Of a stretch of DNA of 36,298 nt, positions 5,921 to 24,746 are shown piece by piece. The notes beneath the pieces were generated by a model. The model was not told the DNA's origin and searched no databases. It was given only the letters and a program-made list of their open reading frames with translations. Origin of the DNA: Myxococcales bacterium (lineage in GTDB: Bacteria > Myxococcota_A > Polyangia > Polyangiales > Polyangiaceae); assembly GCA_013297655.1 (NCBI GenBank), contig JAAFHV010000068.1, positions 1 through 36,298 on the forward strand. Reading direction: 5' to 3'. The position numbers were made by a program, and so were the translations under genes. How positions within the stretch are numbered: position 1 is the stretch's first letter; the number at the start of each line of letters is the position of its first letter.

Positions 5921-5928
5921 GCGCGCAT

Positions 5929-5958
5929 TTGACACCGAGTTTTTGCCCCATCTATAAC
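5929..5958 (+). promoter_or_regulatory. Near-consensus sigma70-type promoter for the 6040-7607 genes
   Basis: A perfect -35 TTGACA (5929-5934) is followed after 18 bp by TATAAC (5953-5958), five of six matches to the -10 consensus. Transcription should start near 5965, about 75 bases before the ATG at 6040. The -35 lies just upstream of the start of the divergent gene at 4493-5920, so the two initiation regions overlap. This is the best promoter match seen in the intergenic regions of the window. Confidence 0.6.
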
Positions 5959-6039: not shown

Positions 6040-6594
6040 ATGGTCTCCACCTTCGACCCCGCTCGCGCAGTGAGACTCGATTTTCCCCGTGGCGCTGCCC
6101 TCGCGTCCGACGACGAGCGCCTCGTGCTGCTCCCCGCGGCGGCCCTGATCGAGCTCACGCTCGAAGCCCCCGCCGAGCTTCGTGTCACGCTCGGGAAAGC
6201 CCTCGGGGCCTCTCTCGGAGCGCGGGTCGCGAAGCGGCTCGGAGGGAGCGACGGCGCCACGAAGGCCACCCTCGAGGGTTTTCTGAACGAGCTCGCCGGT
6301 GAGGTCGCTGCGGCGGGCCTCGGCACGCTCGGGCTCGAACGCTGGGGGCGCGCGCTGGTCGTCACGGTCGGAAACCCGGCGGTCGAGGACGACGCCTTCC
6401 TCGCTGGCCTCGTGGGCGCTGCGCTGGCGACGGCGACTGGCAAAGATACGCACGCCGTTCACCTCGCCAACGCCGATGGCCAAGCGAAGCTCCTCGTCGC
6501 GAGCCGCGGAACCGCCGAACGCGTACGTGGGTTCGTCGCGGACGGTGTGTCGTTCGGCGCGATCCTCGAGAAGCTCCACGGAGGTGCGGCATGA
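6040..6594 (+). CDS. Conserved-looking alpha/beta protein of unknown function
   Basis: The 184-residue product has no signal peptide or membrane segment, so it should be cytoplasmic. It alternates helices (LRVTLGKALGASLGARVAKRL) with beta strands (RALVVTVGNP, HAVHLANADGQAKLLVASRG) and ends RVRGFVADGVSFGAILEKLHGGAA. The second half loosely recalls V4R-type ligand-binding domains, but the resemblance is too weak to assign. Start 6040 is preferred over the longer frame opening at 5896, because that would begin inside the divergent gene and upstream of the promoter. The next gene starts in an ATGA overlap with this stop, so the two are probably translated together. Confidence 0.65.
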   Translation: MVSTFDPARAVRLDFPRGAALASDDERLVLLPAAALIELTLEAPAELRVTLGKALGASLGARVAKRLGGSDGATKATLEGFLNELAGEVAAAGLGTLGLERWGRALVVTVGNPAVEDDAFLAGLVGAALATATGKDTHAVHLANADGQAKLLVASRGTAERVRGFVADGVSFGAILEKLHGGAA

Positions 6595-7607
6595 GCCAGC
6601 TCGACCCGCGCGTCCCCAAGCTCGAAGCGCTCCTCACCCGCATCAAGACCCGCGCCGCGGAGCCCCGCGCCGCTCAGCCGGTCCAAGCTGCTCCAGTAAA
6701 GGTCGCGGCTGCCGCTCCCGCGCCGCAGCCGATCCCGATCGCCGCGAAGGGCCCAGCGACCGCGCCGCCTCCCACTGCGCCGCCCCCCACCGCCCCGCCT
6801 CCCACCGCGCCGCCCGCCGAGTCGGTCGTGCGTTCTGCGCCGCACACCATCGGTGGGCCGCCCCCGAGCCGCCGAAGCCATGGCGCGCTCCCCGCTGTAA
6901 GCCCGCCCCCTGCGCGCCCGTCGTCGCCCGCGAACACGGCGATCCGAATCCCGGAGGACCGCAAGACCCCCGTCCCCACGTCGACCGAGCCCGCCAGCTT
7001 CGGGAGCGACGCCACCCTCTCCGCCGTGCGGATCGACGCCGACTCCTCCGTCGACGCGCTGCTCGCACAGCAGGGCGAGGGGGAGGCCGATTACGACGAC
7101 GCGACGATCCAAGCGAGCGTCGAGAAGCCCTCCACCACCCTCGCAGGTGTCGGCGTGGGAACGTTGCCACCGCTCACCCGCTCCCCGGTCACCCCGATCC
7201 CGCAGGCGCCGGCCTCGGCCCCCCGCGCGATCGAGGCTCCCTACGAGGAAGAAGAGCGGCATCACACGCCGCCGCCCGAGTCGGGAAAACAGAAGGCGCC
7301 TTCGCTCGTCCCGGCGGTCGCTGCGCCCGTGGCCGTGCCCGCCGCGCGGAAGTCGGGAGAGCTCCCCCGCCTCAACGACGACGATCCGGCAGACGACGAG
7401 GGCACGCTCTCCGGTGTCGGCGGCGGGCTCGGCGCGCCGGCCGCGAAGGTGACCGGCTCGGTCGTGGCCGAGGCGAGGCCGATCGTGCAGACCGTGCATG
7501 CGGCGAGTCTCCCGAAGGGAACCGTCGCGGCAGCAACGTCCGGAAGCGCTGCACCGACGGCGCCTTCCAGCCTCGGTGACCTTCTCGACCTCACGCTCGC
7601 GCTCTAA
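6591..7607 (+). CDS. Pro/Ala-rich, largely disordered protein of unknown function
   Basis: The 338-residue product starts with a short helix (LDPRVPKLEALLTRIKTRAAE) and then becomes Pro/Ala-rich and probably disordered almost to its end, where SSLGDLLDLTLAL forms a short hydrophobic helix. It contains four TAPPP-type repeats at about residues 57-76. Terminal helices with a long flexible middle suggest a tether between two binding partners; this is inference. Its start overlaps the previous stop (ATGA, 6591-6594), and a GGAGG ribosome binding site lies at 6580-6584. It should be co-transcribed with the 6040 gene from the promoter at 5929. Confidence 0.7.
   Translation: MSQLDPRVPKLEALLTRIKTRAAEPRAAQPVQAAPVKVAAAAPAPQPIPIAAKGPATAPPPTAPPPTAPPPTAPPAESVVRSAPHTIGGPPPSRRSHGALPAVSPPPARPSSPANTAIRIPEDRKTPVPTSTEPASFGSDATLSAVRIDADSSVDALLAQQGEGEADYDDATIQASVEKPSTTLAGVGVGTLPPLTRSPVTPIPQAPASAPRAIEAPYEEEERHHTPPPESGKQKAPSLVPAVAAPVAVPAARKSGELPRLNDDDPADDEGTLSGVGGGLGAPAAKVTGSVVAEARPIVQTVHAASLPKGTVAAATSGSAAPTAPSSLGDLLDLTLAL
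6759..6818 (+). repeat. Four in-frame 15-bp repeats encoding TAPPP
   Basis: Units begin at 6759, 6774, 6789 and 6804 and follow the pattern ACCGCGCCGCCTCCC with a few third-position changes. The last unit ends PPA. They lie in frame inside the Pro-rich gene, so copy-number change would lengthen or shorten the linker without a frameshift. Confidence 0.85.
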
Positions 7608-8582: not shown

Positions 8583-9524
8583 TCAGGACGCTACGCAGAG
8601 CGCGATGAACACGCCGACGAGGTAGACGAGCGACACGAGGAAGAGCCCGCGCGCCCAGCGCCGATCCGAGGTCTTCGCGAGGCCGACCACGCCGGCCGAG
8701 AAGAACATCGCGCCGAGCAGCGAGACCGCCACGATGTACCCGATGCCGTGGACGAGGCCGAGCGGAACGACGAGGAACGAGCAGGCGATGGTGGGCACGA
8801 GCCAGCGCGCGATAGCGTGTTTTACCGCGACGTCGCCGGTGACGTTGGGCATCACGACGAGGCCTGCGCGCGCGTACTCGCCCTTGCGAAAGAGCGCGAT
8901 CGCGAGCGAGTGCGGAACTTGCCACGTGAACATGAGCCCGAAGAGCACGAGGCCGGCCGCGTCGATGCGACCGGTCGCCGCCGTCCACCCGAGGAGCGGA
9001 GGGATCGCGCCCGGGATCGCGCCGACGAGGAGCGCGTGGTGCGAGCGCTGCTTGAGCGGCGTGTAGGCGAGCACGTACAGCAGGTTCGCGAGCACGGCGA
9101 GCAGCGCCGTGAGCGCGTTGGCGCCGATGGCCAACACCGGCACCGCGACCGACGACGTGACGACGCCGAACCACAGCGCCGCGCGCGGCGAGAGCCGACC
9201 CTTCGGCAGCGGGCGGTTCTTCGTGCGCTCCATTTTGCGGTCGAAATCGCGCTCGATGTACATGTTCAGCGCGTTGGCGCCGGAGACGACGAGCGACGTA
9301 CCGACCAGCGTCGCGACCAAGAGCGCGAACGTTACGGGAGAGCTGCCGGTGCTCGCGAGGGCCGCCTTGTGCGCGAGCCAGAGCCCGCCGGCGGTGGTGA
9401 CCACGACCATGAACGTGATGCGCGGCTTCGCGAGGGCCACGTAGTCCGAGAAGCGTCCAACCCCAACAGCCCGAGAAGACTCGGTTTTTTCGGATTCGAC
9501 GGCGGGTTCTACGGGGGCGTTCAT
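8583..9524 (-). CDS. ctaB: Protoheme IX farnesyltransferase (heme O synthase)
   Basis: CtaB/CyoE transfers a farnesyl group from farnesyl diphosphate to heme b, giving heme O for terminal oxidases, in the cytoplasmic membrane. The 313-residue product has the family signature NALNMYIERDFDRKMERTKN at about residues 84-103, with the Asp-rich diphosphate/Mg-binding motif. The second conserved loop reads YTPLKQRSHHALLVGAIPGA. About nine hydrophobic segments are present. ATG 9524 gives a 25-residue soluble leader before DYVALAKPRITFM; the longer frame to 9734 runs into the divergent gene and was rejected. No oxidase subunit or ctaA gene is visible nearby, so the gene appears isolated. It is divergent from the giant TPR gene. 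Confidence 0.93.
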   Translation of the reverse strand: MNAPVEPAVESEKTESSRAVGVGRFSDYVALAKPRITFMVVVTTAGGLWLAHKAALASTGSSPVTFALLVATLVGTSLVVSGANALNMYIERDFDRKMERTKNRPLPKGRLSPRAALWFGVVTSSVAVPVLAIGANALTALLAVLANLLYVLAYTPLKQRSHHALLVGAIPGAIPPLLGWTAATGRIDAAGLVLFGLMFTWQVPHSLAIALFRKGEYARAGLVVMPNVTGDVAVKHAIARWLVPTIACSFLVVPLGLVHGIGYIVAVSLLGAMFFSAGVVGLAKTSDRRWARGLFLVSLVYLVGVFIALCVAS

Positions 9525-9720
9525 GGGAATCTCGGCGAACCGCGGAGTCGCGGCCAGCGTGGGCCGTATAGGTACGGGCTTCTCGTGCGTCAAGGAAAAG
9601 GCGGAGCGCGGACCTGTCCTGGCCCTGCGCTGCGAAACCCTTCCGCTTTTCCGCCACACTCGCCCGGAACGGATAACCTCTAGGCCCCGCCGCGCGGCAC
9701 GCGTCGCGGGCCGAAATTCC

Positions 9721-12700
9721 ATGGCCACCGACATCCTGGCAGCGCTGAGCTCCCCCCTCGAGAACGAGGAAGCCCTCCTCGATCAACTGCTCCTCTCATT
9801 GTCTCGCGGGGAGCTCCCGCCGGACGTGTGGAGCACCCTCAACGACGCCGCGATCCGAGACGACCGCGTCTCCGAGCTCGCGTTCGCGTTCGAGATCGTG
9901 ATTCAGGGCAAGCGCCTGAAGAGCGTCGCGAACGCGGTAGGCGCGGAGTTTTTGCTCCGCGCCGCGTCGTTCTTCCAAGAGTCCCTCGGGGACGACGTGG
10001 GGGCGATCGGGTACCTGGAGCGTGCGGTCGGCCTCGCGCCCACGTACGTACCGGCGTTCGAGAAGCTCGACGACCTGCTGTCCGCTGCGAACGAGACGAA
10101 GAAGCTCGCCGACCTCTGCTTTTCGCAGGTGTCGCATCGTACGGAGCCGAGCGACAAGATCGCGCTCCTGCGCCGCGCGGCCATCCTCTACGAGACGCTC
10201 GGCGGGCAAGAGGATCGCGGGGTGGAAGCGCTCCAGCAGATCCTCAAGATCGCCCCCGCCGATGGAGAAGCGCGGCGCGCCCTCGAAGCGCGCTACGTGA
10301 AGCAGAACCGGCACCGTGACGTGACGAAGCTGCTCGAAGCGGCGCTCGCGACCACCCCGCCGCCGAGCGACGAAGAGTCGGGGGAGATTCGTCTGCGGCT
10401 CCTCGATCTCTACGCGAACCAGCTCCAAGAGCCGGAGCGCGCGCTCCCCCACGCCGAGACGGTGCTCGAGCTCGACCCGTTCCACGAGGACGCGAAGCGG
10501 GTCGCGGCGAAGCTGCTCGTGAACAAGGCCCACGCCGCGCGTGCGGCAGCGGCGCTGTCGCGTGCTTCGTTCGCGACCGGCGATCTCGTCGAGATGGAGA
10601 AGTTCCTCGTCATCGAGCTCGAGCACACGCGCGGCGCGAAGCGCTTCGGGGTGTTGAAGCGCCTCGGGGTGCTCCGCCAAGACTCGCTGAACCAACCGAC
10701 GTCCGCGTTCGAGGCGTTCGACGCCGCGCTCGCGATCGATCCGACGGACGACGATCTGCGCGCACGTTACGTGGAGCTCGCCGTCACCCTCGGCAACCCG
10801 CTCGACGCCGCGCGGAGCCTGACCCGCGTCTCGACGGCGGCGAAAGAGCCCCAGCTCCGCTCGCGGATCGCGGCCGAATCGGGCGCCCTCTTGCGCGTGG
10901 GCGGCGACATGAAGCGCGCGCGCGCCACCTTCGTGAGCGTGCTCGGGATGCCACAAGCCGACGACGCGGCGATCGTTCGTGCGGCGCGCGAGCTCGTCGA
11001 CATCTACGGCGCGGAGGGCGACACGAAGGCCCTCATCGAGGTGCTCGACAAGCTCGGAGAGCTCGATCCGGAAGAAGATCTCCGCCGCGCCGCGAACGAG
11101 AAGCTCGCCGAGATCGCGGTCTCGCGCGGGGACGACGCGCGCGCGATCGTCGCCTACACGCGCCTCGTCGGTAGCTCGTCGCGGCAGACGGCGCTCGCCG
11201 AGCTCGAGCTCCTCCACGAGCGCGCGGGCAACCACACCCAGCTCGCCGACATCCTCCACGAACGTGAGAAAGAAGCCACTTCGCGAGGCGAAGCGCGCCA
11301 GATCGCGTTCCGCGCGGCGGAGATCCTCACGAACCTCACGAACGACGTCGCGCGCGCGGCGGCGGCGTGGAAAGGGATCGCCGACCGCTACGGCGCGACG
11401 CGCAACGTGCATATTGCATGGATTCCGTTGCTCGAGGCGCAGCGCGATTGGGCCGGGCTCGCGGACGTGCTCGCCGCCGACGCGGACATCGCACCGGAAG
11501 CGGAGCGCGCCAGCATCCTCGCGCGCCTCGGACACGTGTATCTCACACGCTTGTCCGACGACGCGCAGGCGTTCGAGACGTTCGCGCGCGTGCTCGAGTT
11601 CGACCCCGCCGAGCCGCAGACGCGCGGCACCTTGGAGAAGCTTCTCTCGGGTAAGGATCACCGCGCGAGGGCGGCAGAGGTGCTCGAGCCGCTCTACCGC
11701 ACCGAGCGCAACACGGCGGGGCTCTTGCGTGTGCTCGAGGTCCGCGTCGAGGACGCCGATGGCGTCGAAAGCCGGCAAAAGGCGCTCCTCGAAGCCTCGC
11801 GCGTCGCGGAAGAGGTCGCGCCCGATCGCGCGCTTCTCTTGTCGAGCCGCGGACTCATCGACGCGGCAGAGAGCCACCTCGATGTTCACCCTTGGCTCGA
11901 GCGGGTGGAGCGCCTCTCGACCGGCCTCGACGCCAAGCGACGCGCCGGGCTCTTCGCGCGCGCGCTAGGGGAGCTCGAGGTCGACTCCCCCGGCATGCTC
12001 GCCCTCGCGCGACGAACGGGCGACGCGCTCGCCCTCGCCGGCGACGTGGCGCAGGCGCTCGCTGTTTACAAGCGCGCGCTCGCGTTCGATCCGTCGGCCG
12101 AAGACTTGATGTCGCGCGTCGACGAGCTCCTGAAGGAGCAAGGAAACGCCGAAGAGCGCGTGGCCCTTTACCGCGCCGCGCTCGAGCAGGGCACCGGCGA
12201 TCGTGAGCGTCGTCGCCAGCTCCTCCACGGAATCGGCTCGATCGAGCGCTACGAGCTCTCGAACCCGGCCGCCGCGATCCTCGCCTATCGCGCCGCGCTC
12301 CGCGACGACGCCCACGATCGCGAGGCGTTCGCCGCGCTCGTCGCGCTCTACGAAGAGACGTCACAGTGGGGCGAGCTCTGCGACGTGCTCGAGAGCAGCC
12401 TCGAAATCGTGACGCCGGAAGAGTCGCGCCGCCTCCGCGCCCAGCTCGCGGAGGTCACGTCGACGCACGGGCAGCCAGATCGCGCGCGCGCCCACGTGAG
12501 CATCTTGCTCGCCGACGCGGGCCTCGCCGGCGTGGAGCTCGACACCGCCGAGCGTGTCGCGACGACCCTCGGTGACGTCGACCTCGCCGAGGCGGTGCTC
12601 GAACGCCGCCTCCGCGAGACCCCCGACGTCCGCGAGCACGTGAGCCTCCTCGAACGCCTCGGTGTGCTCGCCCTCGAACGGAAAAACGATCCCGCCCTCG

Positions 12701-15700
12701 CCCTCGAGCGTCTCCGCGCGGCCGCCGATCTCGCGAAGGCGCTCGGCGAGCAAGACGACGCCGCGCGCCTCTACGAGGTGATCCTCCGCCTCTTCCCGAG
12801 CGACGCAGGAGCCGCCGCCGAGCTCGCCGAAATCTCCGAAGAACGCGGTGATTTCGCGAAGTTGCCCAACTTGCTCGACGTGCTCCTCGCCGCCGAGCCG
12901 GACACGCGCACGAAGGTCGCGTTGATGCTGAAGAAGAGCCGCGTGCTCTCTCAGCAGCTCGGTGACGAACGCGGCGCGCTCGAGGCTTCCGCGGAGGCGT
13001 TCGCGCTCGCGCCAGAAGATCGCGCGGTGCTCTCGGTCTTCGGAGACCTCGCGAATCGCACCGGCGAGACCGACCTGTTCTGCGAAGCGCTCGACGCCAA
13101 GCTCACGTCCGGGATGGAAGGAAAGGACGCCTCGGTGCGCTCCGACCTCGTGCTCGCGAAGGCACGCCTGCTCGGAAAGGATCCCGATCGCTACGAAGAA
13201 GCAGCCCTCGCCTACCGGAGCGTGCTCCGCGGAGTCGGCCTCGACGACACCCGAAGCGCGCTCGCAGCGAGCGAGTTCGAGGAGCTCGCCCTCTCCGACG
13301 TCGCGCCGGCGACGGTGTCCGACGGCGCAAAAGACGACGGCGATACTCGGCACGCCGATCTGCGCTGGCTGTGGAATTTTCGCGTCGATCGCGCCGACTT
13401 CGAAGAGCGTGTCGCGCTCGTGCTCGCCTGGGCGCGGACGGAAGAGACCACGCTCGCCGATCCGGAGCGCGCCCTCGGCCTCTATCACCGCGTGACCGAG
13501 ATCGAACCGGAGCAAGACGAGGCCCTCCAAGGGATCGCTCGCCTGTCGCTCGCGATCGGCGACGTGGAGGGCGGCGTCGCGGCGCTCGCTTCGCGTCGTG
13601 ATCGCTCGAACGGCGAGGCGAAGAACCTCCTCGATCTCGAGATCGCGGAGATCTTGCTCTCGCGGACGACGCGCCTCTCCGAGGCCCTCGCGAGCGTGGG
13701 CGCGGTGCTCGAGAGCACGCCTCACGACGCGCGCGCGATCGCCCTCGGCGCGAAGCTGCTCCGCGCGCCGGCGGTTCGCGCACGCGCGGTGGAGACGTTC
13801 GAGAACGCGCTCGATCTCTCCGACGACGCCGACGCGAAGATCGCGATCTTGAACGAGCTTTTGACGAGCGCGGACGACTCGGGGGAGACACCGGACGCAC
13901 TCTTTCGCTGGTACGAGGAGCTCGCGACCCTCCACACCGACAAGGGGCGCGCACAAGACGCGCTCGACGCCGTGCTCCGCGCGACGAGCAAGCTCCCCAC
14001 GAACCACGCGCTCTGGGATCGCGCCGAGTCGCTCTCGCGCGACCTCGAGAACCCTCACGCCGTCGCCGAGCTGTACGAGAGCACCCTCGACGGCTCCCTC
14101 ACCCGCGAGGACGCGGTCGAGCTCGGGAAGCGCGCCGTCTCGTTCTTCGAGGAGTGGTACGACGACTCGAACCGAAGCGCGCGCGTGCTCGAGCGGATCC
14201 TCGAGACCGACCCCAACGAGCCATGGGCATTCGATCGGCTGAAGCTGCTCTTCGACGCGGAGGAGCGCTGGCAAGATTTGTTCGGGCTCTTCGATCGCGC
14301 GATCGTCGCGGCGCCGGCGGACAAGAAGCTCGAGCTCTTGGACGAAGCGGCGCAGGTCGCGAAAGACTTCGCGAGCGATCCGATCAAAGCTATCGAGTAC
14401 CTCGAACAAATTCGGAAGATTCGACCGAACGTCGCGCGCGTCGACGCCGCGCTCGAGCGCCTCTACGAGCGCACCGGGCGCTTCCGCGAGCTCATTGCAC
14501 TCTACACCGGCCAGATCCCGAACCAAGCCGAGCCGGAGGCGCAAGACACGCGCGCGCGAATCGCGAGGATCCTCGTCGACGAGCTGAAAGACGTGACCGC
14601 CGCCCTCGCCGTGGTCGAAGAGCTCATCTTGCGCGAGCCAGAGCTCGGGCCGCGGAAAGACGTCGAGCCGATCCTCGAGCGTATCCTCGACGCGACGGCG
14701 CACGGGACCGAGGCGCGCGAAGAGGGCAAATCGGGTCGCCCGCAGGGCGGAAAGCGGGCTCAGACTCGCCAACGCGCGGCCGCCATTTTGAAGGAGCGGT
14801 ACACGGCCGCGCAGCGTGAATCGGACCTCGTGCGCATCCTCGAGGTGGAGCTCGAGGCGGTCAAGGGCACGAAGGATCGCGCGCGCAGGCACGAGCAAAT
14901 CGCCGTCCTCCACGAGACGCTCGGTGACGCGAAGGACGCCCTCGAGCACGTCGAGCAGCTCGTGCTCCTCGAGCCGCACGTGAAGGAGCACCGCGACCGA
15001 CTCGAAGATCTCGCCGCGCGCACCTCGGCGTTCCCGAAGCTCGTCGAGGTGCTCGTCACCGTCGCCGAGAAGGTCGACGACGACGTGCTCCGCGTGGAGC
15101 TGTACCTCCACGCCGGCCTCGTGACGGCGGAGCACATCAAGGACGAAGAACGCGCGATCGACCTATTTTCAAAGGTCATTTCTGCGCCGCAGCCCCCCGA
15201 CGAGCTCGTGCTCGCGGCCTGCCGCGCGACCGAGCCGCTCCTCGAGCGAGCGCGGCAAGGCGCGGCGCCCGAGCACCTCGAGGTCCTCGAACGGCAAGGC
15301 AGCCTCGAGCCGGAGCCGGACGTGCGCTTCCGCGTGCTCGCGAAGGCGGCGCGCCTCGCGACGGAGCTGTTCGAGCTCGACCGCGCGATTTGGGCGTGGG
15401 AGTCGTGCCGCGACATCGTGCCGACCGACGCGGCGACGCTCGACGGCCTCGCGGACCTCTTCGAGCGAACGAACCGCAGCAAGGAGCTCGTCGGCGTGCT
15501 CTCGGTGCGCTCGCGCCTCGCGCAGCGGCCCACCCCGCAGCGACGCGCCGATTACGTGCGTGTTGCACACATCCTCGGAGAGGCCCTCGGCGAGGTCAAA
15601 GAAGCGATTTTGGCTTGGGACGCGGAGGAGCAAGAGTTCGGCGAGTCCGACGAGAACATCCGCGCGCGGCTCTCGCTCTACCGAGCCTCGCGCCAGTGGG

Positions 15701-18700
15701 ACAAGCTCGCCGCGCTCCTCGAGCGCGCCGCGCTCCGCCCCGCGACCCCTGAGGTGCAGGCCACGTTCCTCCACGAGCTCGGCGACGTCGCGCGCGAGTA
15801 CCTCGAGACGGGGCCGAAGGCGATCCACAGCTACGAGGCCGCGCTGCAGAAGGATCCGCGGAACGAAGGCGCACGCGCGGGTCTTCGCACGTTGCTCCGC
15901 CGCGGTGATCTCCGCGCCGAAGCGGTGCGTGTGCTCTTGTTCGCGCACACCTCGACCGACGAGTGGCGCGCGATCCTCGACTTGACCGAGCACCGCGTCG
16001 CGACCGCGAAGGACGGCCCCGCCCGGATCGCCATTTTCCACGAAGCGGCGAGCATCTCCGAGCGACGCGGAGAGGACCGCGAAGCTGCATTTTCCCTCGT
16101 TCGACGCGCGTTCCTGCTCGACTCGGGCCGCGCCGACAGCGAGGCCGAGCTCTTCCGGCTCGCCGACGCGACGAGGCAGTGGCGCTCCGTCGCCGACGCG
16201 CAACGCGAAGCTATCGAAGCGAAGGAGAGCATCGACGCGGAGCCACCTTGGCTCCCCGGCCTCCGCTACCGCATGGGCGAGGTGCTCGAGGGTCGGCTCG
16301 AAGATCCGCGCGCGGCGCTCGCGGCCTACGCACGCGTCGCATCCGACGATCCGAATGACCTGCAAGCGGGACGCGCGACGATTCGCACCGCCGGAAAGAC
16401 GATGCGATGGGACGCCGCGGCACGCGCGCTGGTCGACGCGGCGCGGGCCGCAGAGGGCCTCGTGCCCCAGCTCGTCAGCGCGTTCGAGGAGTCCGCGACG
16501 GCAGCGAGCGGGTGGGACTCGGCCACGTCGGCGGTCGCCGCGCTCGTCGCGGATCGCGGGGAGACAGGGCCCCTCGCGAAGGAGCTCGAGACCCAAGTCG
16601 CGCGCTGGCACCGCGAACGACGCAAGGATCCCGAGGCCGCCGAGGCTGCTTACCTGCGCGCCCTCGGCCACGACCGCGACGATCCCGCGTTGCTGCTCGA
16701 GCTCGCTCAGCTCCAGCGCCGCGCGCGCGGCAAGCCGCTCATCGACAGCTTGATTCGGCTCTCCCAGGCGACGGGAGGCGACCTCGACCTCTTGCGCGAA
16801 GCGGCCGACATCGCGAAGGACGACGTCGGCGATCGCGCGCTCGCAAAATCGATCCTCGCGAAGCTCCTCAAGCTCGCGACCGATCGTTGGGTCGGTGACG
16901 AAGCCGATACGTCGGTGTCGTCCGGCGCGCCAGGCGAGCCCGCGAGCTACCTGCGAAGAGCGGTCCGCGACCTCGTCGAGATCCACCGCGCAGAGGGAGA
17001 CCTCGATCGCGTGACGACGCTCCTCTTGGACACGTCGACGCTCCCGTTTCCCCGCCCCGAGCAGCGCGCCCTCAGGCACGAAGCCGCTCGTATCTACGCG
17101 CAAGAGCTCAGGAATATCGATCTGGCGATCGCGGTATACGACAAGCTCTTCAGCGAGGACTCGAACGACGAGATCGCCGTCCACGAGCTCACCGAGATCC
17201 TCGAGCGAGAGGGGCGAACGCGCGACTTGCTCGCCCTCGCGAAGCGCCGGGTCGCGGTCGCGGGGGGCACCACGATGCGCCTCGCGCTCCGGATCGAGAC
17301 GGCACGAATCGAGACCACGCTCGGCGAGACGACCGAAGCCCTCGCCACGTTGCGAGAGAACCTCGCCGAATCTCCGCGCCACCCCGAGTCGGTCGAGGCG
17401 CTCGTCGTGCTCCTCGACCGCGAGCGGAAATTCAAAGACCTCGAAGAGCTCTACGCGACACAAGCCGAGCGCGCGGAGGCGGACGTCGACCTCGCGGAGG
17501 CGGCCGAGCTTTTCGAACGGGCCGCCGAGGTCGCGCTGAATCGGCTCTCCCAGGCTCCCCTCGCCGCCCAGCATTTCCGGCGCGTCGTCGCGCTCGAGCC
17601 ACGGCCCACCGCGCTCGACGCGCTCGCGAAGCTCGCGATCGACGCCGCCGAGCTGGCCGGCGCGGCAGAGTACCTCGAGCGCCTCCGCCACGTCGTGAAG
17701 GACAAGGAGCGCACCGAGGTGGTGCTCCGCATGGTTTACGCCCTCGAAAAAGCAGACTTCGCCGGCACCGCGATCGAGCGCCTCGAGGAGGAGGTCTCTC
17801 GCGCGCCGGAGTCGGAGCCGCTCCGCATCAAGCTCCTCGCGCTCTACCGCGAGCGCGACGACTTCGCGAACCTCGCCCGCACCCTTACCGTCGGCGCGCA
17901 ATACGCCCCTGACAAACACACCCGCCTCGGTCGTCTCCGCGAGGCCTCACATCTCTATTGCACCGAGGTTCGTGAGCCTGCGCTCGCGATCCCCCTCCTC
18001 GAGATGGCCTGCGATCTCGCGCCCGACGAGCGCCCCGTGAGGCTCGCCCTCGCCGACGCGCTCGGTCTGAGCGGCCGCATCGACGAAGCGAGGACCATGC
18101 TCCGCGCGATCATCGACGACTTCGCGGGGAGGCGCCCGAAGGAGCGCGCGCCGGTGCACTACCACCTCGCGCGACTCGATCTCGTGGTCGGCGATCGGCC
18201 GCGTGCGCTCGTCGAGCTCGACGCCGCGACACGCATCGATCCCGCGAACCCGGAGATCTTGCGCACCCTCGCGGAGCTCTCTCGCGACGACGGGCAGCTC
18301 GATCGCGCCGAGCGTTCGTACCGCGCGCTCCTCACCGTCCTAAGGCGCCAAGAAGACGTCCACGGCTCCGGAATTTCGCGTGGTGAGGTGCTCCTCGAGC
18401 TCGCGAACGTGGCGGAGCGTCAAGACCAACACGAGCGCGCGGCGGAGCTCTTCGAGTCGGCGCTCGAGGTGGCGGCCGAGAGCGACACGGAGAGCAAGCG
18501 CCTCGAGCGCGCCCTCCGAGAACGTGGAAACTACAAGGGTCTCGTACGTGCGCTCTCGCAGCGGCTGCAAAAGGGCAAAGGCGAGGACCGCGATTTCGAC
18601 GCCACGGTAGAGCTCGCGCGCGCCCTCGACGAGCACCTCCAGACACCGGAGCAAGCCCTCGTCGCGTGGCTCGACGCGCTCCGCGTTCGGCCCGGCTCGC

Positions 18701-21700
18701 AGAACGCACACGAAGCTTCACTCGCGCTCGCCGAGCGCCTCGGTCTCGTCTCGCGCTACACGAGCGAGCTCCAGAAGCTGGCGCGGACGATCGAGAAACC
18801 CACCTCGCTCGCGAGCGATCTCCAAAAGCGCCTCGGTGACACCCTCGAGCGATTCGCGGGAGACGCGAAGGGCGCGATCGAGGCCTACGAGCGCTCGCTC
18901 GAGCTCGACCCGTCCGCGAACGAGACCCTGGAGGCGCTCGACCGCCTCTACGAACGGCTCGGCGACGACGCTGGCCAAGCCCGCACGCTCGCCGCGCGAA
19001 TCGCCCTCGGCAAGGAGTCGAGCGACGCCCTCTATCGCCTCGCGCAGCTTCGCTACAAGTCGAAGGTCACCGTCGACGACGCGTGCGACGCGCTGGAAGA
19101 GGCGCTCGAACGCGAGCCTCTGCTCGACCGCGCCGAGTCGATCTTGCGCCAAGCGGCGGAGGCTCACCCGAGCGAAGAACGTGTGCTCGCGCTCTACGAG
19201 CGGATCGGCCGTCAGGGTTATCCTCGCGCCCTCGTCGACGCGCTGACGAAGCGTTGGTCGATGGAGCTCGGCGAGGCCTACGTGCTCCGCGAGGCGATCG
19301 AGACGGCGAAGAGCCTCCCCGATATGGACCTCGCCGAGTTCTGGCTCCGGCGTTTCCTCGAACGCGACGGCCAGACGACCGAGGATCGCACCTGGGCACT
19401 GGTCGAGCTTTCCCATATTTGTGTGGAAAAACGCGATCTTGCCGAAGCAGTACTCTTGAAGAAGGAGGCCGCCGAGGCGAGCGCACCGGAGGAGGCACGC
19501 GCGCTCTTCCTGGAGGTCGCCCACCTCGCGGCGAACGAGCTCGCCGACCTGCCGCTCGCGGCGCAGACGTACGAAGAGCTGCGCTTCCAAGACCCCGCCG
19601 ACCGCACGATCTGGGAGCCGCTGCTCTCGGTGTACGAGCGGATGGGCGAGTACGAGAAGGTGTCGCAGCTCCTCGGACAGGTCGTCGAGTTCGTCGACGA
19701 TCGGGCCGAACGCTCCAAGATTCGCCTCCGCCGCGTCGAGATCGGGATCGACAAGCTCGGCCTCGGCGACGACGCCGCGACCCAGCTCAAAGAGATCCTC
19801 GACGACGACCCGAGCCAGGCCAACGCCGCGATCTTGCTCGGCAGCATCCTCGAGCGAAATGGCCGCGAAGAAGAGCTCATCGAGCTTCTCTCTCGCCAGC
19901 TCGAGGCGGCGCGCGATCGCGAGGACGCCGCGTCCATCGTGTCGCTCTCGAAGCGGCTCGGCGCGCTCCTCGAGACGCGCGCGCCGGACGAAGCAAAGGA
20001 CGTCTACCGCCGAATGCTCGAGGTTCGCGGCGACGACCGCGGGGTGCTGGAGGCCCTCGCGCGCCTCTCGGAACAATCGGGCGACGCGCAGGAGCACGCC
20101 GAGATTTTGGAGCGGCTGCTCTCGGTGACCGACGGTCAAGAGGCCGAGAAGCTCTCGATCCGGGTCGGCGGGATCTTCCGCGAGCTCGGCGATCCGGAGC
20201 GCGCGCGCTCGGCTTTCGAAAGAGGATTCGCGGCCTATCCGCAGAGCTCGAGCCTGCGCACGGAGCTCGAGACGAGCTACCGCGACACGCGGGCGTGGGA
20301 GAAGCTCGCCGGGATGTACGAGCTCGAGGCCGGCGCGCAGCCGAACCCCGAACGCCGCGTCGCGGTGCTTCGAATGGCAGCGGCGGTGTACCGCGACGAG
20401 CTCCACATGCACGTCGCGGGGGCGCGGGTGATGCGACTCGCGAAGGAGGTCATGCCGCACGACATGACGATCTTGCGCGAGCTCACCGATTTGCTCATCG
20501 CTTCCGGCGAGCATCAAACCGCGGCCGACGAGATCGGCCTCGCGCTCGCGGACATCGCGCTCGACAGCCCCGATCGTGGCAGCTTGCTCTCCGAACGTGC
20601 GGCGCTGTTCGCCCAAATCGACCGCGACGAAGAGGCCCTCGCCGACTGGGAAGAAGCGCTCGCGGCCGGTGATCGCATGGTGATCGACCCGCTCGCGATT
20701 CACCTCACGAAGCTCGCGACGAAGGCAGCCGGCGCCGGCGACACGCGCGGCTGGAGGAAGCGAAGGCTTCGTCTGGCCGAGCTACGCCACGACGGAGGCC
20801 AGACCGAAGAGGCACGCGCGATCCTCACCGAGCTGCTCAAGTCCGACGGCCGCGATCGCGACGCGATTCGGTCCCTCGCGCGAATGGAGGAGCAGCTCGA
20901 ACGATGGGACGCGGCGAGCGCCACCTACCGCCGCCTCGTCACCCTCGAGGACAAGGAAGCGATCGTCGACGTCGCGCTCCGCCTCGCGAACGCGTGCGAG
21001 CGCGCGGGACGGCTCGCCGACGCGCGTGGTGGCATCGAGCGAGCACGCACCGTGGAGCCGCAGAACGAGGCGCTGCGCAACGTACTCGAGCGTATCTACA
21101 AGGAAACACTCGCACTTCGGGAGCTGGCCGAGCTCTACCTCGAGGACGCTCGCGCCGCGATGGACGTCGCGGGGCGCTTCTCGCACCTCATTCGCGCCGG
21201 CTCGCTGTTCCTCCAGCACGCCCAAGATCCGAACCTGGCGATCGAGCCACTCGAAGAAGCGCGAACCCTGCGCCCGAACGATCTCGACTGCGTCGCGCTG
21301 CTCGCCGATGCGTACACGGCGGGCGGTCGTTATGCAGAAGCGAGCGACGTGCTGGTGGGCGCCGTCACCGCGCACAAGGGCCGGAGGAGCCGCGAGCTCT
21401 CCACCCTCTACCACCGGCTCGCGCGCGTCGCGCAGGCGACCGACAACCGCAACGCAGAGCTCCAGAACCTGACCACCGCGCTCGACATCGACGCGCAGAA
21501 CGGCCACGTCGCGTCCGAGCTCGCGTACCTCGCGATGGAGCTCGGCGAGTGGGACACCGCGAACCGCGCCCTCCGCGCCGTCACGATGCTCAAGACCGCC
21601 GCTCCGCTTCCCCGCTCCCTCGCGTACCAGCACCTCGGCGAAATCGCGCAGGCGCAGGGCGACGTTCGGCGCGCGGTGGGCTTCTTGAAGCGCGCGCTCG

Positions 21701-21753
21701 ACGAGGATCCCAACCTCGACACCGCCCGCGCCCTCCTCGACCAGCTCTCGTGA
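9721..21753 (+). CDS. Giant tetratricopeptide repeat protein (about 4,010 residues)
   Basis: A single uninterrupted frame encodes about 4,010 residues, almost entirely helix-turn-helix repeats of the TPR type. Clear examples are GDDVGAIGYLERAVGLAP near residue 90, EPERALPHAETVLELDP near 237, and a canonical final repeat (GEIAQAQGDVRRAVGFLKRALDEDP) ending at the C-terminus. No signal peptide, membrane segment or enzymatic motif was seen, so a cytoplasmic scaffold is most likely. Repeat regularity is broken by a Gly/Lys/Arg-rich linker at about 1661-1680 (EEGKSGRPQGGKR) and a Ser/Gly/Pro linker near 2395. The ATG at 9721 was chosen because repeats begin soon after it. The in-frame ATG at 9523 would lie in the divergent ctaB start region and adds 66 residues without TPR character. 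Myxobacteria are known to have very large TPR proteins, some linked to motility; that role is not shown here. Confidence 0.92.
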   Translation: MATDILAALSSPLENEEALLDQLLLSLSRGELPPDVWSTLNDAAIRDDRVSELAFAFEIVIQGKRLKSVANAVGAEFLLRAASFFQESLGDDVGAIGYLERAVGLAPTYVPAFEKLDDLLSAANETKKLADLCFSQVSHRTEPSDKIALLRRAAILYETLGGQEDRGVEALQQILKIAPADGEARRALEARYVKQNRHRDVTKLLEAALATTPPPSDEESGEIRLRLLDLYANQLQEPERALPHAETVLELDPFHEDAKRVAAKLLVNKAHAARAAAALSRASFATGDLVEMEKFLVIELEHTRGAKRFGVLKRLGVLRQDSLNQPTSAFEAFDAALAIDPTDDDLRARYVELAVTLGNPLDAARSLTRVSTAAKEPQLRSRIAAESGALLRVGGDMKRARATFVSVLGMPQADDAAIVRAARELVDIYGAEGDTKALIEVLDKLGELDPEEDLRRAANEKLAEIAVSRGDDARAIVAYTRLVGSSSRQTALAELELLHERAGNHTQLADILHEREKEATSRGEARQIAFRAAEILTNLTNDVARAAAAWKGIADRYGATRNVHIAWIPLLEAQRDWAGLADVLAADADIAPEAERASILARLGHVYLTRLSDDAQAFETFARVLEFDPAEPQTRGTLEKLLSGKDHRARAAEVLEPLYRTERNTAGLLRVLEVRVEDADGVESRQKALLEASRVAEEVAPDRALLLSSRGLIDAAESHLDVHPWLERVERLSTGLDAKRRAGLFARALGELEVDSPGMLALARRTGDALALAGDVAQALAVYKRALAFDPSAEDLMSRVDELLKEQGNAEERVALYRAALEQGTGDRERRRQLLHGIGSIERYELSNPAAAILAYRAALRDDAHDREAFAALVALYEETSQWGELCDVLESSLEIVTPEESRRLRAQLAEVTSTHGQPDRARAHVSILLADAGLAGVELDTAERVATTLGDVDLAEAVLERRLRETPDVREHVSLLERLGVLALERKNDPALALERLRAAADLAKALGEQDDAARLYEVILRLFPSDAGAAAELAEISEERGDFAKLPNLLDVLLAAEPDTRTKVALMLKKSRVLSQQLGDERGALEASAEAFALAPEDRAVLSVFGDLANRTGETDLFCEALDAKLTSGMEGKDASVRSDLVLAKARLLGKDPDRYEEAALAYRSVLRGVGLDDTRSALAASEFEELALSDVAPATVSDGAKDDGDTRHADLRWLWNFRVDRADFEERVALVLAWARTEETTLADPERALGLYHRVTEIEPEQDEALQGIARLSLAIGDVEGGVAALASRRDRSNGEAKNLLDLEIAEILLSRTTRLSEALASVGAVLESTPHDARAIALGAKLLRAPAVRARAVETFENALDLSDDADAKIAILNELLTSADDSGETPDALFRWYEELATLHTDKGRAQDALDAVLRATSKLPTNHALWDRAESLSRDLENPHAVAELYESTLDGSLTREDAVELGKRAVSFFEEWYDDSNRSARVLERILETDPNEPWAFDRLKLLFDAEERWQDLFGLFDRAIVAAPADKKLELLDEAAQVAKDFASDPIKAIEYLEQIRKIRPNVARVDAALERLYERTGRFRELIALYTGQIPNQAEPEAQDTRARIARILVDELKDVTAALAVVEELILREPELGPRKDVEPILERILDATAHGTEAREEGKSGRPQGGKRAQTRQRAAAILKERYTAAQRESDLVRILEVELEAVKGTKDRARRHEQIAVLHETLGDAKDALEHVEQLVLLEPHVKEHRDRLEDLAARTSAFPKLVEVLVTVAEKVDDDVLRVELYLHAGLVTAEHIKDEERAIDLFSKVISAPQPPDELVLAACRATEPLLERARQGAAPEHLEVLERQGSLEPEPDVRFRVLAKAARLATELFELDRAIWAWESCRDIVPTDAATLDGLADLFERTNRSKELVGVLSVRSRLAQRPTPQRRADYVRVAHILGEALGEVKEAILAWDAEEQEFGESDENIRARLSLYRASRQWDKLAALLERAALRPATPEVQATFLHELGDVAREYLETGPKAIHSYEAALQKDPRNEGARAGLRTLLRRGDLRAEAVRVLLFAHTSTDEWRAILDLTEHRVATAKDGPARIAIFHEAASISERRGEDREAAFSLVRRAFLLDSGRADSEAELFRLADATRQWRSVADAQREAIEAKESIDAEPPWLPGLRYRMGEVLEGRLEDPRAALAAYARVASDDPNDLQAGRATIRTAGKTMRWDAAARALVDAARAAEGLVPQLVSAFEESATAASGWDSATSAVAALVADRGETGPLAKELETQVARWHRERRKDPEAAEAAYLRALGHDRDDPALLLELAQLQRRARGKPLIDSLIRLSQATGGDLDLLREAADIAKDDVGDRALAKSILAKLLKLATDRWVGDEADTSVSSGAPGEPASYLRRAVRDLVEIHRAEGDLDRVTTLLLDTSTLPFPRPEQRALRHEAARIYAQELRNIDLAIAVYDKLFSEDSNDEIAVHELTEILEREGRTRDLLALAKRRVAVAGGTTMRLALRIETARIETTLGETTEALATLRENLAESPRHPESVEALVVLLDRERKFKDLEELYATQAERAEADVDLAEAAELFERAAEVALNRLSQAPLAAQHFRRVVALEPRPTALDALAKLAIDAAELAGAAEYLERLRHVVKDKERTEVVLRMVYALEKADFAGTAIERLEEEVSRAPESEPLRIKLLALYRERDDFANLARTLTVGAQYAPDKHTRLGRLREASHLYCTEVREPALAIPLLEMACDLAPDERPVRLALADALGLSGRIDEARTMLRAIIDDFAGRRPKERAPVHYHLARLDLVVGDRPRALVELDAATRIDPANPEILRTLAELSRDDGQLDRAERSYRALLTVLRRQEDVHGSGISRGEVLLELANVAERQDQHERAAELFESALEVAAESDTESKRLERALRERGNYKGLVRALSQRLQKGKGEDRDFDATVELARALDEHLQTPEQALVAWLDALRVRPGSQNAHEASLALAERLGLVSRYTSELQKLARTIEKPTSLASDLQKRLGDTLERFAGDAKGAIEAYERSLELDPSANETLEALDRLYERLGDDAGQARTLAARIALGKESSDALYRLAQLRYKSKVTVDDACDALEEALEREPLLDRAESILRQAAEAHPSEERVLALYERIGRQGYPRALVDALTKRWSMELGEAYVLREAIETAKSLPDMDLAEFWLRRFLERDGQTTEDRTWALVELSHICVEKRDLAEAVLLKKEAAEASAPEEARALFLEVAHLAANELADLPLAAQTYEELRFQDPADRTIWEPLLSVYERMGEYEKVSQLLGQVVEFVDDRAERSKIRLRRVEIGIDKLGLGDDAATQLKEILDDDPSQANAAILLGSILERNGREEELIELLSRQLEAARDREDAASIVSLSKRLGALLETRAPDEAKDVYRRMLEVRGDDRGVLEALARLSEQSGDAQEHAEILERLLSVTDGQEAEKLSIRVGGIFRELGDPERARSAFERGFAAYPQSSSLRTELETSYRDTRAWEKLAGMYELEAGAQPNPERRVAVLRMAAAVYRDELHMHVAGARVMRLAKEVMPHDMTILRELTDLLIASGEHQTAADEIGLALADIALDSPDRGSLLSERAALFAQIDRDEEALADWEEALAAGDRMVIDPLAIHLTKLATKAAGAGDTRGWRKRRLRLAELRHDGGQTEEARAILTELLKSDGRDRDAIRSLARMEEQLERWDAASATYRRLVTLEDKEAIVDVALRLANACERAGRLADARGGIERARTVEPQNEALRNVLERIYKETLALRELAELYLEDARAAMDVAGRFSHLIRAGSLFLQHAQDPNLAIEPLEEARTLRPNDLDCVALLADAYTAGGRYAEASDVLVGAVTAHKGRRSRELSTLYHRLARVAQATDNRNAELQNLTTALDIDAQNGHVASELAYLAMELGEWDTANRALRAVTMLKTAAPLPRSLAYQHLGEIAQAQGDVRRAVGFLKRALDEDPNLDTARALLDQLS

Positions 21754-21864: not shown

Positions 21865-22383
21865 TCAGCCCTTGCGGGCGATCGCCTCGTAGATGCGGGT
21901 CATCGCGATCTTGAGCTCGTCGTTGAACGGATCGCATTGGATCGCGGTCGCGAGCTCGAGGCGCGCTTGCTCGAAGTTGCCGATCGAGGCGAGGCGGTCC
22001 GCCTTGCGGGCGTGGGTCTTCGCCTCGGGGGTCTGCGCGATCGTCTCGAGCGTCTTCGCGACCGCCTTCGCCTTCTGTTCGGCGAGGGCATGCTCGTCGA
22101 TGCGGAGCTTGCCGGCGCGGAGCGCGTCGTCGTACTTCGCACGTTGATCGGGCCGCGAGAGCACGCGGTAGGCCTCGACTCCACGCTTGAAGACCTCTGC
22201 CGCGGCGACGGCGGCTTCTTGCGTGAACTCCACGTAGCGGTCTGGGTGGCACTTGAGCGCGAACTCGTGGAACGCCGCCTTCACCGACTCTTGGGACGCC
22301 CTCTCGTCGACCTTCAAGATGGCGTAATAACTCATCTCTTCGAGCGACTCGTGCCAGGCGCGGAGGAGCGCGGGGGACAGCAT
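21865..22383 (-). CDS. J-domain protein with TPR-like C-terminus
   Basis: The 172-residue product has a J domain at about residues 17-85 (SYYAILKVDERASQESVKAAF) with the essential HPD tripeptide at 46-48 (KCHPDRY), which stimulates Hsp70 ATPase. It lacks the Gly/Phe-rich and zinc-finger regions of DnaJ. Its C-terminal part (DRLASIGNFEQARLELATAI followed by CDPFNDEL) has the spacing of one TPR unit and may bind a client or partner. The ATG overlaps the stop of the Hsp70 gene (TGATG at 22381-22385), with GAGAGG about 7 bases upstream, so the two proteins should be made together. It is almost certainly the dedicated co-chaperone of the neighbouring Hsp70. It is the last gene of the operon that begins with gltB. 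Confidence 0.88.
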   Translation of the reverse strand: MLSPALLRAWHESLEEMSYYAILKVDERASQESVKAAFHEFALKCHPDRYVEFTQEAAVAAAEVFKRGVEAYRVLSRPDQRAKYDDALRAGKLRIDEHALAEQKAKAVAKTLETIAQTPEAKTHARKADRLASIGNFEQARLELATAIQCDPFNDELKIAMTRIYEAIARKG

Positions 22384-24746
22384 CAGAGCACCTCTCGCAG
22401 CGCTTGGCGGTTCATCATCGCTTCGATGTCGGCGGCCTCGGTGAGCGCGCCGAAAGAACGCAAGGTCGCGCGTGTCTCGGTGCCGCTCTGTTTGTCCTTG
22501 GCCTTCACGTTCAAGATGCCGTCGGCGTCGAGCTCGAACGTGACCACGATCGCCGCGTCGCCGCGCTTGCCGGGCCGGATCCCGGAGAGCTCGAGCTCGC
22601 CGAGGTACGTGTTCTGATCGAAGCGGTTCGACGCTCCCTGCGCGACGCGGATGAACACGCGCGTCTGGCCGTCCTGCGCGGTGCGGAAGACACGAGTCTT
22701 GTCGCACGGCACGGGCGTGTTGGCGGCGAGGAGCACGTCGCAGTAGCCCGCGACCGTCTCGACGAGGAGGCTGAGCGGCGTCACGTCGACGAGCAGCGGC
22801 GCACGTCCGCGCGTCGCGATGCCCCCCTGCTCCACCATCCGCGCGCGCTCGAGCAACGCGCTCTCCGACTCGTCGACCTCGATCGCGCCGTCGGCCGCCT
22901 CGATGTCGTCGCGCGAGTAGAGCGCCCTCGGCATGCGCGGCTCGGAGCGCGGGTGCTGAGGCGGCATCGCCGGCCAAGGGCTCGTTTCTCCTGGCTTTCC
23001 AGGTACATACACCGCGGCCGGCTGGACCCGCGGGCGACCGGGCACGGCCGGGATGAGCTCTTCGGGAGTGCCCGCTTCCGCCGGCGGAGGAGGCGCCGCT
23101 GGCCTCGCCGCGCCGGCGACGAGGCTGACGTCGGAGGCATCGACGGCGAGTCGCCCTGCGGCGGATGGAGCCAAATCGGGCACCGGCGGCATCTCGCGAT
23201 CGGCGCCGGGGACGGGCATGGTGCTCACGACCTGATGAGGCGCCTCGGTGAGGGGCGCGCTCGCCCCCGCGAGGAGGGCGCTCATCGCTTCGGTCTTTTG
23301 CGCGGCGACGGTGGGCGCTTCAGGCGGCCGAGTGCTCGCCACGTCGCGATCGGTGGCTTCGAGGATCGCCGGCGGAGTGAACGTGAGGACCGGCATCGCC
23401 GAAGAGCTCGGCGGTGGCTCGGGTACGAAGTCGGAGATCGGCTTCGCCGCCTTGGGCCGGAGCGTCTCTCGCTCGGCCTCCCCGTCGACGGGATCGCGCG
23501 ACGGGAACGCGTCGAGGCCGGACTTTACGCCGCCGGCGGTAGCCTCGGGGAACGCGTCGAGGGCTCCGGCCCCTTTTTTCTTGGCCTTCGGACGATCGCC
23601 GCGCGTTCGAACGAGGGAGTGCGCTTGGATCGCGGCGCCGAGAGCGACGACCTCGTCCGGGTTCACGCGTACGCTCGGAGGCTGCGAGAAGAACTCGCCC
23701 ACGCGTCGCGCGATGAGCGGCATGCGCGTCGAGCCGCCGACGAGGATCACGCGGCGGAAGTCGGAGGGAGAGAGCCGCGCCATCGTGAGCGACTGACGCG
23801 TGACCTCGAGGGTGCGATCGACGAGCGGCTGCGCGAGCACTTCGAGCTCGGCGCGGGTGAGCTTTCCTCGCACGTCGATCGGGACGCCGTTCGGGGAGTA
23901 CACGATGTCGCGGATCTCGTGCTCGACCACGGTCGCGACTGACAAATCGCGCTTCATCGTCTCGGCCGCGAGGCGAAGGCGCCCGAAGGCGATCGGATCG
24001 CGACGCGCTTCGACGCCGTGGCCTTCGCGGACCTGATCGGCGAGACGCTCCGCGACCAAGCTGTCGAGATCGTCGCCCCCGAGCGCGGTGTCGCCTGCGG
24101 TCGCGAGCACCTCGAACACGTTGCCGTCGAGATCGAGGAGCGTGATGTCGAACGTTCCGCCACCGAGGTCGTAAACGGCGATGCGCTCGTTGTCCTCGAT
24201 CGCCTGACCGTACGCGAGCGCGGCCGCCGTGGGCTCGTTCAAGATGCGGAGCACCTCGAGCCCCGCGAGCTTGCCCGCGAGCTTCGTCGCCGCGCGCTGC
24301 AGGTCGTTGAAGTTCGCCGGCACGGTAATGACGGCGCGATCGACCTTCTCGCCGAGCTGCGCCTCCGCCACCTTCTTCGCGCGGCGGAGCACGAACGCGC
24401 TGATCTCGGGGAGCGCGTAGGGCGTGCCCTGCGCGACGACCATCGTGGCGTCCTTGTCGCCGCGCACGACGCTGAACGGAAAGCGCTCGGCGATGTACTG
24501 CACCTCGGGCGAGTTGAACGGGCGGCCGATGAGACGCTTGACCGAGTAGATGCTGTTCTTCGGATCGGTGAGGCGGCGGTCGCGCGCGGCCTCCCCGACG
24601 AGGACCTGGCCGTCGGGGGTGAACGAAACGATCGACGGGATGAGACGCCGATTTTTTTCGTCCGTCAGCGTGACGGCGACACCGTTGACCACCGCACCGA
24701 CGACGGTGTTGGTCGTTCCGAGATCGATCCCGATCGCTAGGCCCAT
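22383..24746 (-). CDS. Hsp70 (DnaK-like) chaperone with long inter-domain insert and no lid
   Basis: The 787-residue product has a complete Hsp70 ATPase domain at about 1-378, with phosphate-1 IGIDLGTTNTVVG, phosphate-2 VYDLGGGTFDITLL and adenosine motif VILVGGSTRMPLI. In ordinary DnaK the DVTPLSLG linker follows at once. Here about 270 Pro/Ala/Glu-rich, probably disordered residues (379-648) intervene, including two LDAFP motifs. Then LLVDVTPLSLLVETVAGY opens a beta substrate-binding domain with the usual LGELELSGI..FELDADGILNVKAKDK core. The protein ends about 20 residues after this domain, so the alpha-helical lid of DnaK is essentially absent. It is therefore a specialised paralogue, not the housekeeping DnaK. 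The start is 4 bp after gltD and the stop overlaps the J-protein gene. Confidence 0.93.
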   Translation of the reverse strand: MGLAIGIDLGTTNTVVGAVVNGVAVTLTDEKNRRLIPSIVSFTPDGQVLVGEAARDRRLTDPKNSIYSVKRLIGRPFNSPEVQYIAERFPFSVVRGDKDATMVVAQGTPYALPEISAFVLRRAKKVAEAQLGEKVDRAVITVPANFNDLQRAATKLAGKLAGLEVLRILNEPTAAALAYGQAIEDNERIAVYDLGGGTFDITLLDLDGNVFEVLATAGDTALGGDDLDSLVAERLADQVREGHGVEARRDPIAFGRLRLAAETMKRDLSVATVVEHEIRDIVYSPNGVPIDVRGKLTRAELEVLAQPLVDRTLEVTRQSLTMARLSPSDFRRVILVGGSTRMPLIARRVGEFFSQPPSVRVNPDEVVALGAAIQAHSLVRTRGDRPKAKKKGAGALDAFPEATAGGVKSGLDAFPSRDPVDGEAERETLRPKAAKPISDFVPEPPPSSSAMPVLTFTPPAILEATDRDVASTRPPEAPTVAAQKTEAMSALLAGASAPLTEAPHQVVSTMPVPGADREMPPVPDLAPSAAGRLAVDASDVSLVAGAARPAAPPPPAEAGTPEELIPAVPGRPRVQPAAVYVPGKPGETSPWPAMPPQHPRSEPRMPRALYSRDDIEAADGAIEVDESESALLERARMVEQGGIATRGRAPLLVDVTPLSLLVETVAGYCDVLLAANTPVPCDKTRVFRTAQDGQTRVFIRVAQGASNRFDQNTYLGELELSGIRPGKRGDAAIVVTFELDADGILNVKAKDKQSGTETRATLRSFGALTEAADIEAMMNRQALREVL

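Follow-up and report, generated by a model that had tools for sequence, protein, structure and literature searches.

A 4,010-residue TPR protein of modular build in a Myxococcales bacterium, a separate paralogue in a family of giant myxobacterial proteins

The window analysed here, a stretch of 36,298 nucleotides from a Myxococcales bacterium (contig JAAFHV010000068.1), carries a gene whose product is one old, maintained and nearly pure TPR superhelix. The protein is a separate paralogue in a family of giant myxobacterial proteins and a cousin of the gliding-motor scaffold GltI. New in this analysis are old duplications of large internal stretches and the presence of a conserved end module in two copies, and the giant represents a distinct family of modular build with duplicated large units and a shared end module. 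Among open-licence papers, the literature on giant TPR proteins of myxobacteria or other bacteria was found to deal almost only with GltI; here three giants are encoded in one genome. With moderate confidence, the window's giant is regarded as a stand-alone cytosolic scaffold that would be GltI-like in action but not GltI. The features of the gene are the following.

9721..21753, + strand: giant TPR solenoid gene, 4,010 aa (open frame, codon-model start, Pfam TPR, AlphaFold segments)
9721..13980, + strand: N-terminal part absent from the short forms of ~2,600 residues, residues 1-1420 (short-form start points)
9826..11853, + strand: large unit one, first copy, residues 36-711 (250 bits to the profile of segment 1421-2160)
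14008..16044, + strand: large unit one, second copy, residues 1430-2108 (segment profiles)
15988..18273, + strand: large unit two, first copy, residues 2090-2851 (129 bits to the profile of segment 2931-3770)
18556..20730, + strand: large unit two, second copy, residues 2946-3670 (segment profiles)
17791..18510, + strand: END1, internal end module, residues 2691-2930 (best conserved part of the family)
18127-18171, + strand: END1 motif GRRPKERAPVHYHLA, residues 2803-2817
21052..21702, + strand: END2, terminal end module, residues 3778-3994 (108 bits to the END1 profile; tree)
21376-21423, + strand: END2 motif KGRRSRELSTLYHRLA, residues 3886-3901

The frame is open from 9523 to 21753 on the + strand, and a codon-usage model placed the start at ATG 9721 and gave the gene the top coding score of the window. 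The product of 4,010 aa has a mass of 443 kDa and a pI of 5.0. No signal peptide was recognised by inspection of the N-terminus (MATDILAALSSPLENEEALLDQ), the maximal Kyte-Doolittle mean over 19 residues was 1.31 and thus too low for a membrane segment, and no enzymatic domain was found among the Pfam matches of the protein, which comprised TPR families above the cut-off and a few weak alpha-solenoid families. NCBIfam returned mainly TPR families, every match being below the cut-off. In all these respects the first-pass annotation, which had described a single uninterrupted frame for about 4,010 residues and roughly 440 kDa without signal peptide, membrane segment or enzymatic domain, was correct. 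Its view that the protein is exceptionally long does not hold within myxobacteria: according to PMC3169522, M. xanthus GltI is 4,132 residues long, and the genome of the window encodes two further giants of 3,800 residues (contig C2, assigned to group B) and 3,844 residues (contig C514).

The identity autocorrelation of the protein peaks at 72 residues, which corresponds to two hairpins. A 34-residue consensus TPR used as first seed shrank to 20 columns with 15-20 matches in the giant and was substituted by a model of the two-hairpin unit. TPR-profile counting with this model, which had been proposed as a check, yielded 49 units at E<0.1 with a median spacing of 72 residues, and these covered 74% of the length, a value that is generous by construction because the model was trained on the window protein's own family; the same model and threshold gave 0 matches in each of 10 shuffles. 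Structure prediction, likewise proposed, was performed with AlphaFold for two segments spanning 1,801 of the 4,010 residues. Residues 1-900 (8 orthologues) gave 51 helices at a mean pLDDT of 91.3 and residues 2500-3400 (14 orthologues) gave 50 helices at a mean pLDDT of 90.5, arranged in hairpins throughout, and the stretch 663-763 that was missed by the unit model is helical as well. Since the pTM was 0.48-0.49, the models do not fix the overall curvature. Extrapolation from the two segments suggests about 111 TPR-like hairpins for the whole chain. By Pfam, unit model and AlphaFold alike, the protein thus belongs to the TPR repeat proteins, which are defined by hairpins of ~34-38 residues with the TPR signature.

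The repeats had been described as diverged rather than near-identical, and 46 aligned units indeed showed a mean pairwise identity of 20% and a maximum of 39%. Only short and imperfect tandem repeats are present in the DNA of the gene, and a recent expansion at the DNA level is therefore not supported. Eukaryotic TPR scaffolds in the PDB (an IFT-A subunit, Ski3, Ctr9 and the O-GlcNAc transferase OGT) are likewise long TPR solenoids and were matched by Foldseek with E values of 1e-15 to 1e-8, but they are much shorter and reach only 11-18% identity and TM-scores of 0.13-0.45, so that the likeness is one of fold only.

While the earlier description as an almost pure TPR superhelix applies insofar as the chain is TPR-like nearly throughout, the repeats are not strung together uniformly. 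The build of the protein consists of old duplications of roughly 680-760 residues, with residues 36-711 being a copy of 1430-2108 and residues 2090-2851 a copy of 2946-3670, and of the two end-module copies. The end module comprises ~240 residues, and a third instance (184 bits) was found as the C-terminus of the 3,800-aa group B paralogue on C2. An Arg at position 2805 is conserved in 93% of the internal (n=15), 100% of the group B (n=9) and 93% of the terminal (n=15) copies. All 15 internal copies have R2809 and H2813, but in group B and terminal copies Leu predominates at position 2809, which counts against one identical site. In a tree of 39 modules, which like the end-module comparison included the fragment from genome G006, internal and terminal copies were split with 100/100 support. 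Both end modules are present in long and short forms of the protein, and the doubling therefore predates the split of these forms.

The proposed search for orthologues retrieved two proteins collinear over the full length, with 4,034 aa (50.7% identity over 4,043 columns) and 4,031 aa (46.1% over 4,056 columns). Residues 1201-2200 were matched at 1e-30 in 25 of 30 related genomes. An alignment of 14 rows, which omits the two group A fragments G001_C1342 and G006_C459 as well as a stretch of G015_C2 where no gene was called, showed 28-51% identity to the window protein. Six of the 14 rows are short forms of 2,548-2,643 residues that begin at reference residue 1411-1455; one of these (G007) belongs to the family of the window's organism and the remaining five to other families within the order. 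When the best conserved 311 residues were used as an alignment, 97 of 108 family genomes matched at 1e-40, which is a maximum for the protein family of the window's giant since group B C-termini pass this threshold too. In a sample of 282 genomes of the phylum, 33 matched at 1e-60, every one of them within the same class. Among the named records with a match are Labilithrix, Polyangium, Nannocystis, Sandaracinus and Kofleriaceae. Three overlapping Polyangium comparisons gave a dN/dS of 0.098-0.117, and no 300-codon window exceeded 0.2; judged from these ratios, purifying selection acts along the whole gene in Polyangium. The supposition of an old, maintained protein is consequently well founded on collinear orthologues at 28-51% identity and a dN/dS of about 0.1 in Polyangium.

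The 3,800-residue group B giant is likewise TPR throughout, carries at its C-terminus the module homologous to END1 and END2, and is collinear with the window protein over its residues 763-1867 (1014-2138 of the window protein). It differs by its single end module, an identity of 28.6% over 1,183 columns, and other neighbours. Its gene is located at ~33355-44757 (- strand) of contig C2 in genome G000, surrounded by DUF374, polysaccharide deacetylase, acyltransferase and diacylglycerol kinase (DAGK) genes, and full-length orthologues within group B share 39-56% identity.

For the window's giant, we propose that a single chain of ~111 TPR-like hairpins would coil into a long, flexible superhelix and hold partner proteins, in analogy to the paralogous GltI, an intracellular scaffold of the gliding machine. 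END1 and END2, which lie ~860 residues of solenoid apart, would be the main docking sites, and the remaining solenoid may serve as spacer and weaker docking surface. On the basis of sequence conservation, partners probably dock at the two end modules, and conservation of these modules could instead serve folding or stability. The functional likeness to GltI is suggested from a distant paralogue relationship (24% identity), and the giant would act outside the Glt machine. A further idea, which is put forward only tentatively and appears doubtful, is that the class of the organism, Polyangiia to judge by its named carriers, has a second, motility-independent giant scaffold, in which the modules ~860 residues apart would tether two partners over a long range as a cytoskeletal cross-linker derived from the fused ends of two ancestral giants; if true, the giant would in effect be a bacterial cytoskeletal cross-linker. 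Being short, well conserved and expressible, the end modules make it directly testable what such giants hold.

Among the closest known systems is GltI/AgmK (MXAN_4863) from the Myxococcus xanthus Agl-Glt gliding machine, which PMC3169522 describes as a TPR protein of likewise ~4,000 residues with neither signal peptide nor membrane segment, and which figures in PMC13104615 as a large scaffold helping to connect the motor to MreB. Size class, fold, the missing signal peptide and a predicted cytosolic place (4,010 aa, no hydrophobic segment) are shared by the window protein, which is a distant paralogue of the giant encoded in the Glt cluster, and gene clusters of the gliding machine are often scattered, as stated in PMC3169522. 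The window's giant might on these grounds be GltI itself, or an obligate extra part of the Glt machine whose gene lies apart from the Glt cluster, but this is considered unlikely. A better counterpart is present on contig C514, where the 3,844-residue giant adjoins relatives of GltG (NF033760, 6e-98), GltC (NF033756, 1e-72) and GltE (3e-18), all under the curated cut-offs; because of this company it was taken as the GltI/AgmK counterpart. The G1-type Glt cluster of the genome thus lies on C514 with its own giant, and the gene in the window lies outside it. The window protein and the C514 protein are distant homologues (24% identity), the two end modules of the former match the latter weakly (39-63 bits), and the C514 protein scores higher against group B (439-480 bits) than against the window protein (109-137 bits). 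The last ~360 residues of the C514 protein form a non-TPR domain without a Pfam family match that is absent from the window protein; as a mark of GltI this domain is defined from the C514 counterpart and not from M. xanthus GltI. A BLAST search with the domain found it in a kinase-TPR protein on contig C500 (33%, 9e-54). In the genomes sampled, the window protein is moreover restricted to its own class, which was noted as a difference from GltI/AgmK. A GltG-like match at 1e-40 was obtained in 103 of 108 family genomes, 0 of them above the curated cut-off, for which reason some may be paralogues. The GltG-like gene is still present in 9 of 11 genomes without a match to the giant, and the giant is clearly present in 2 of 5 genomes without a GltG-like match; single absences weigh little since many of the family genomes are incomplete MAGs. 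The earlier remark that no motility genes are visible nearby is accurate for the window, in which no Glt gliding gene was recognised, but a link to motility does exist as paralogy with the GltI counterpart on C514.

Upstream of the giant lies UbiA, encoded on the opposite strand; the genes downstream, DnaJ, Hsp70, GltD and GltB, are convergent with the giant. The adjoining Hsp70 and DnaJ genes, seen in the window and in related genomes, would fit a giant co-chaperone platform formed by all three proteins, which we judge to be quite improbable. Across the 80 named loci (of 104 named relatives), DnaJ was recorded in at least 10, Hsp70 in at least 9 and UbiA in at least 9, but GltD, a housekeeping gene, is equally frequent (at least 9); these counts are lower bounds because the flanks are unequal, and nearly all loci concerned are Labilithrix-like. 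In 5 of 8 giant-bearing genomes tested the best Hsp70 match is at most 50% identical and confined to the ATPase domain, so that Hsp70/DnaJ are not supported as constant companions. A second Hsp70-DnaJ pair of the same type, on contig C539 of this genome, is beside no giant match, and the Hsp70 of the window does not end in EEVD, the terminus bound by the carboxylate-clamp TPRs of Hsp70/Hsp90 co-chaperones. Elsewhere the surroundings are different: in six genomes (G003, G014, G034, G081, G099 and G112) a small gene of one cluster, HU-like in both copies inspected, comes after the giant, and five of these six genomes also carry an SHMT-cluster gene downstream of the giant. Operon partners are not supported given that the neighbours change with the lineage, and the gene order around the giant is synteny within lineages that involves housekeeping genes, not an operon. 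Very improbable, finally, is that the single frame gives rise by proteolysis or internal starts to several proteins acting separately. The short forms (~2,600 residues, start ~1411-1455) indicate that the C-terminal part can stand alone, and residues 1195-1225 and 1655-1690 look disordered by composition; against this, the frame stays open as one across many genomes, and coding signal and constraint are even along the gene.

Several further observations were made on the genes around the giants. No Pfam match was obtained for the window genes at 4493-5932, 6591-7607 and 32436-33704, and the gene assignment near 4493-5932 is uncertain because two competing frames overlap there on opposite strands. 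The C500 protein (locus L010, 6777-12161, genome G000) has 1,794 aa and combines an N-terminal protein kinase domain and TPRs with the C-terminal domain of the GltI counterpart. The J-domain protein of the window (21865-22383, - strand) has 172 aa with an HPD motif and a TPR-like C-terminal helix pair, and its gene lies directly after that of Hsp70 (22383-24746, - strand). In this Hsp70 the ATPase domain extends to about residue 380 and is followed by a proline-rich linker of ~260 residues and the beta part of the substrate domain at ~650-780, with neither a helical lid nor an EEVD end. Relatives of this Hsp70 with variable linker length are present in genomes G010, G070 and G073.
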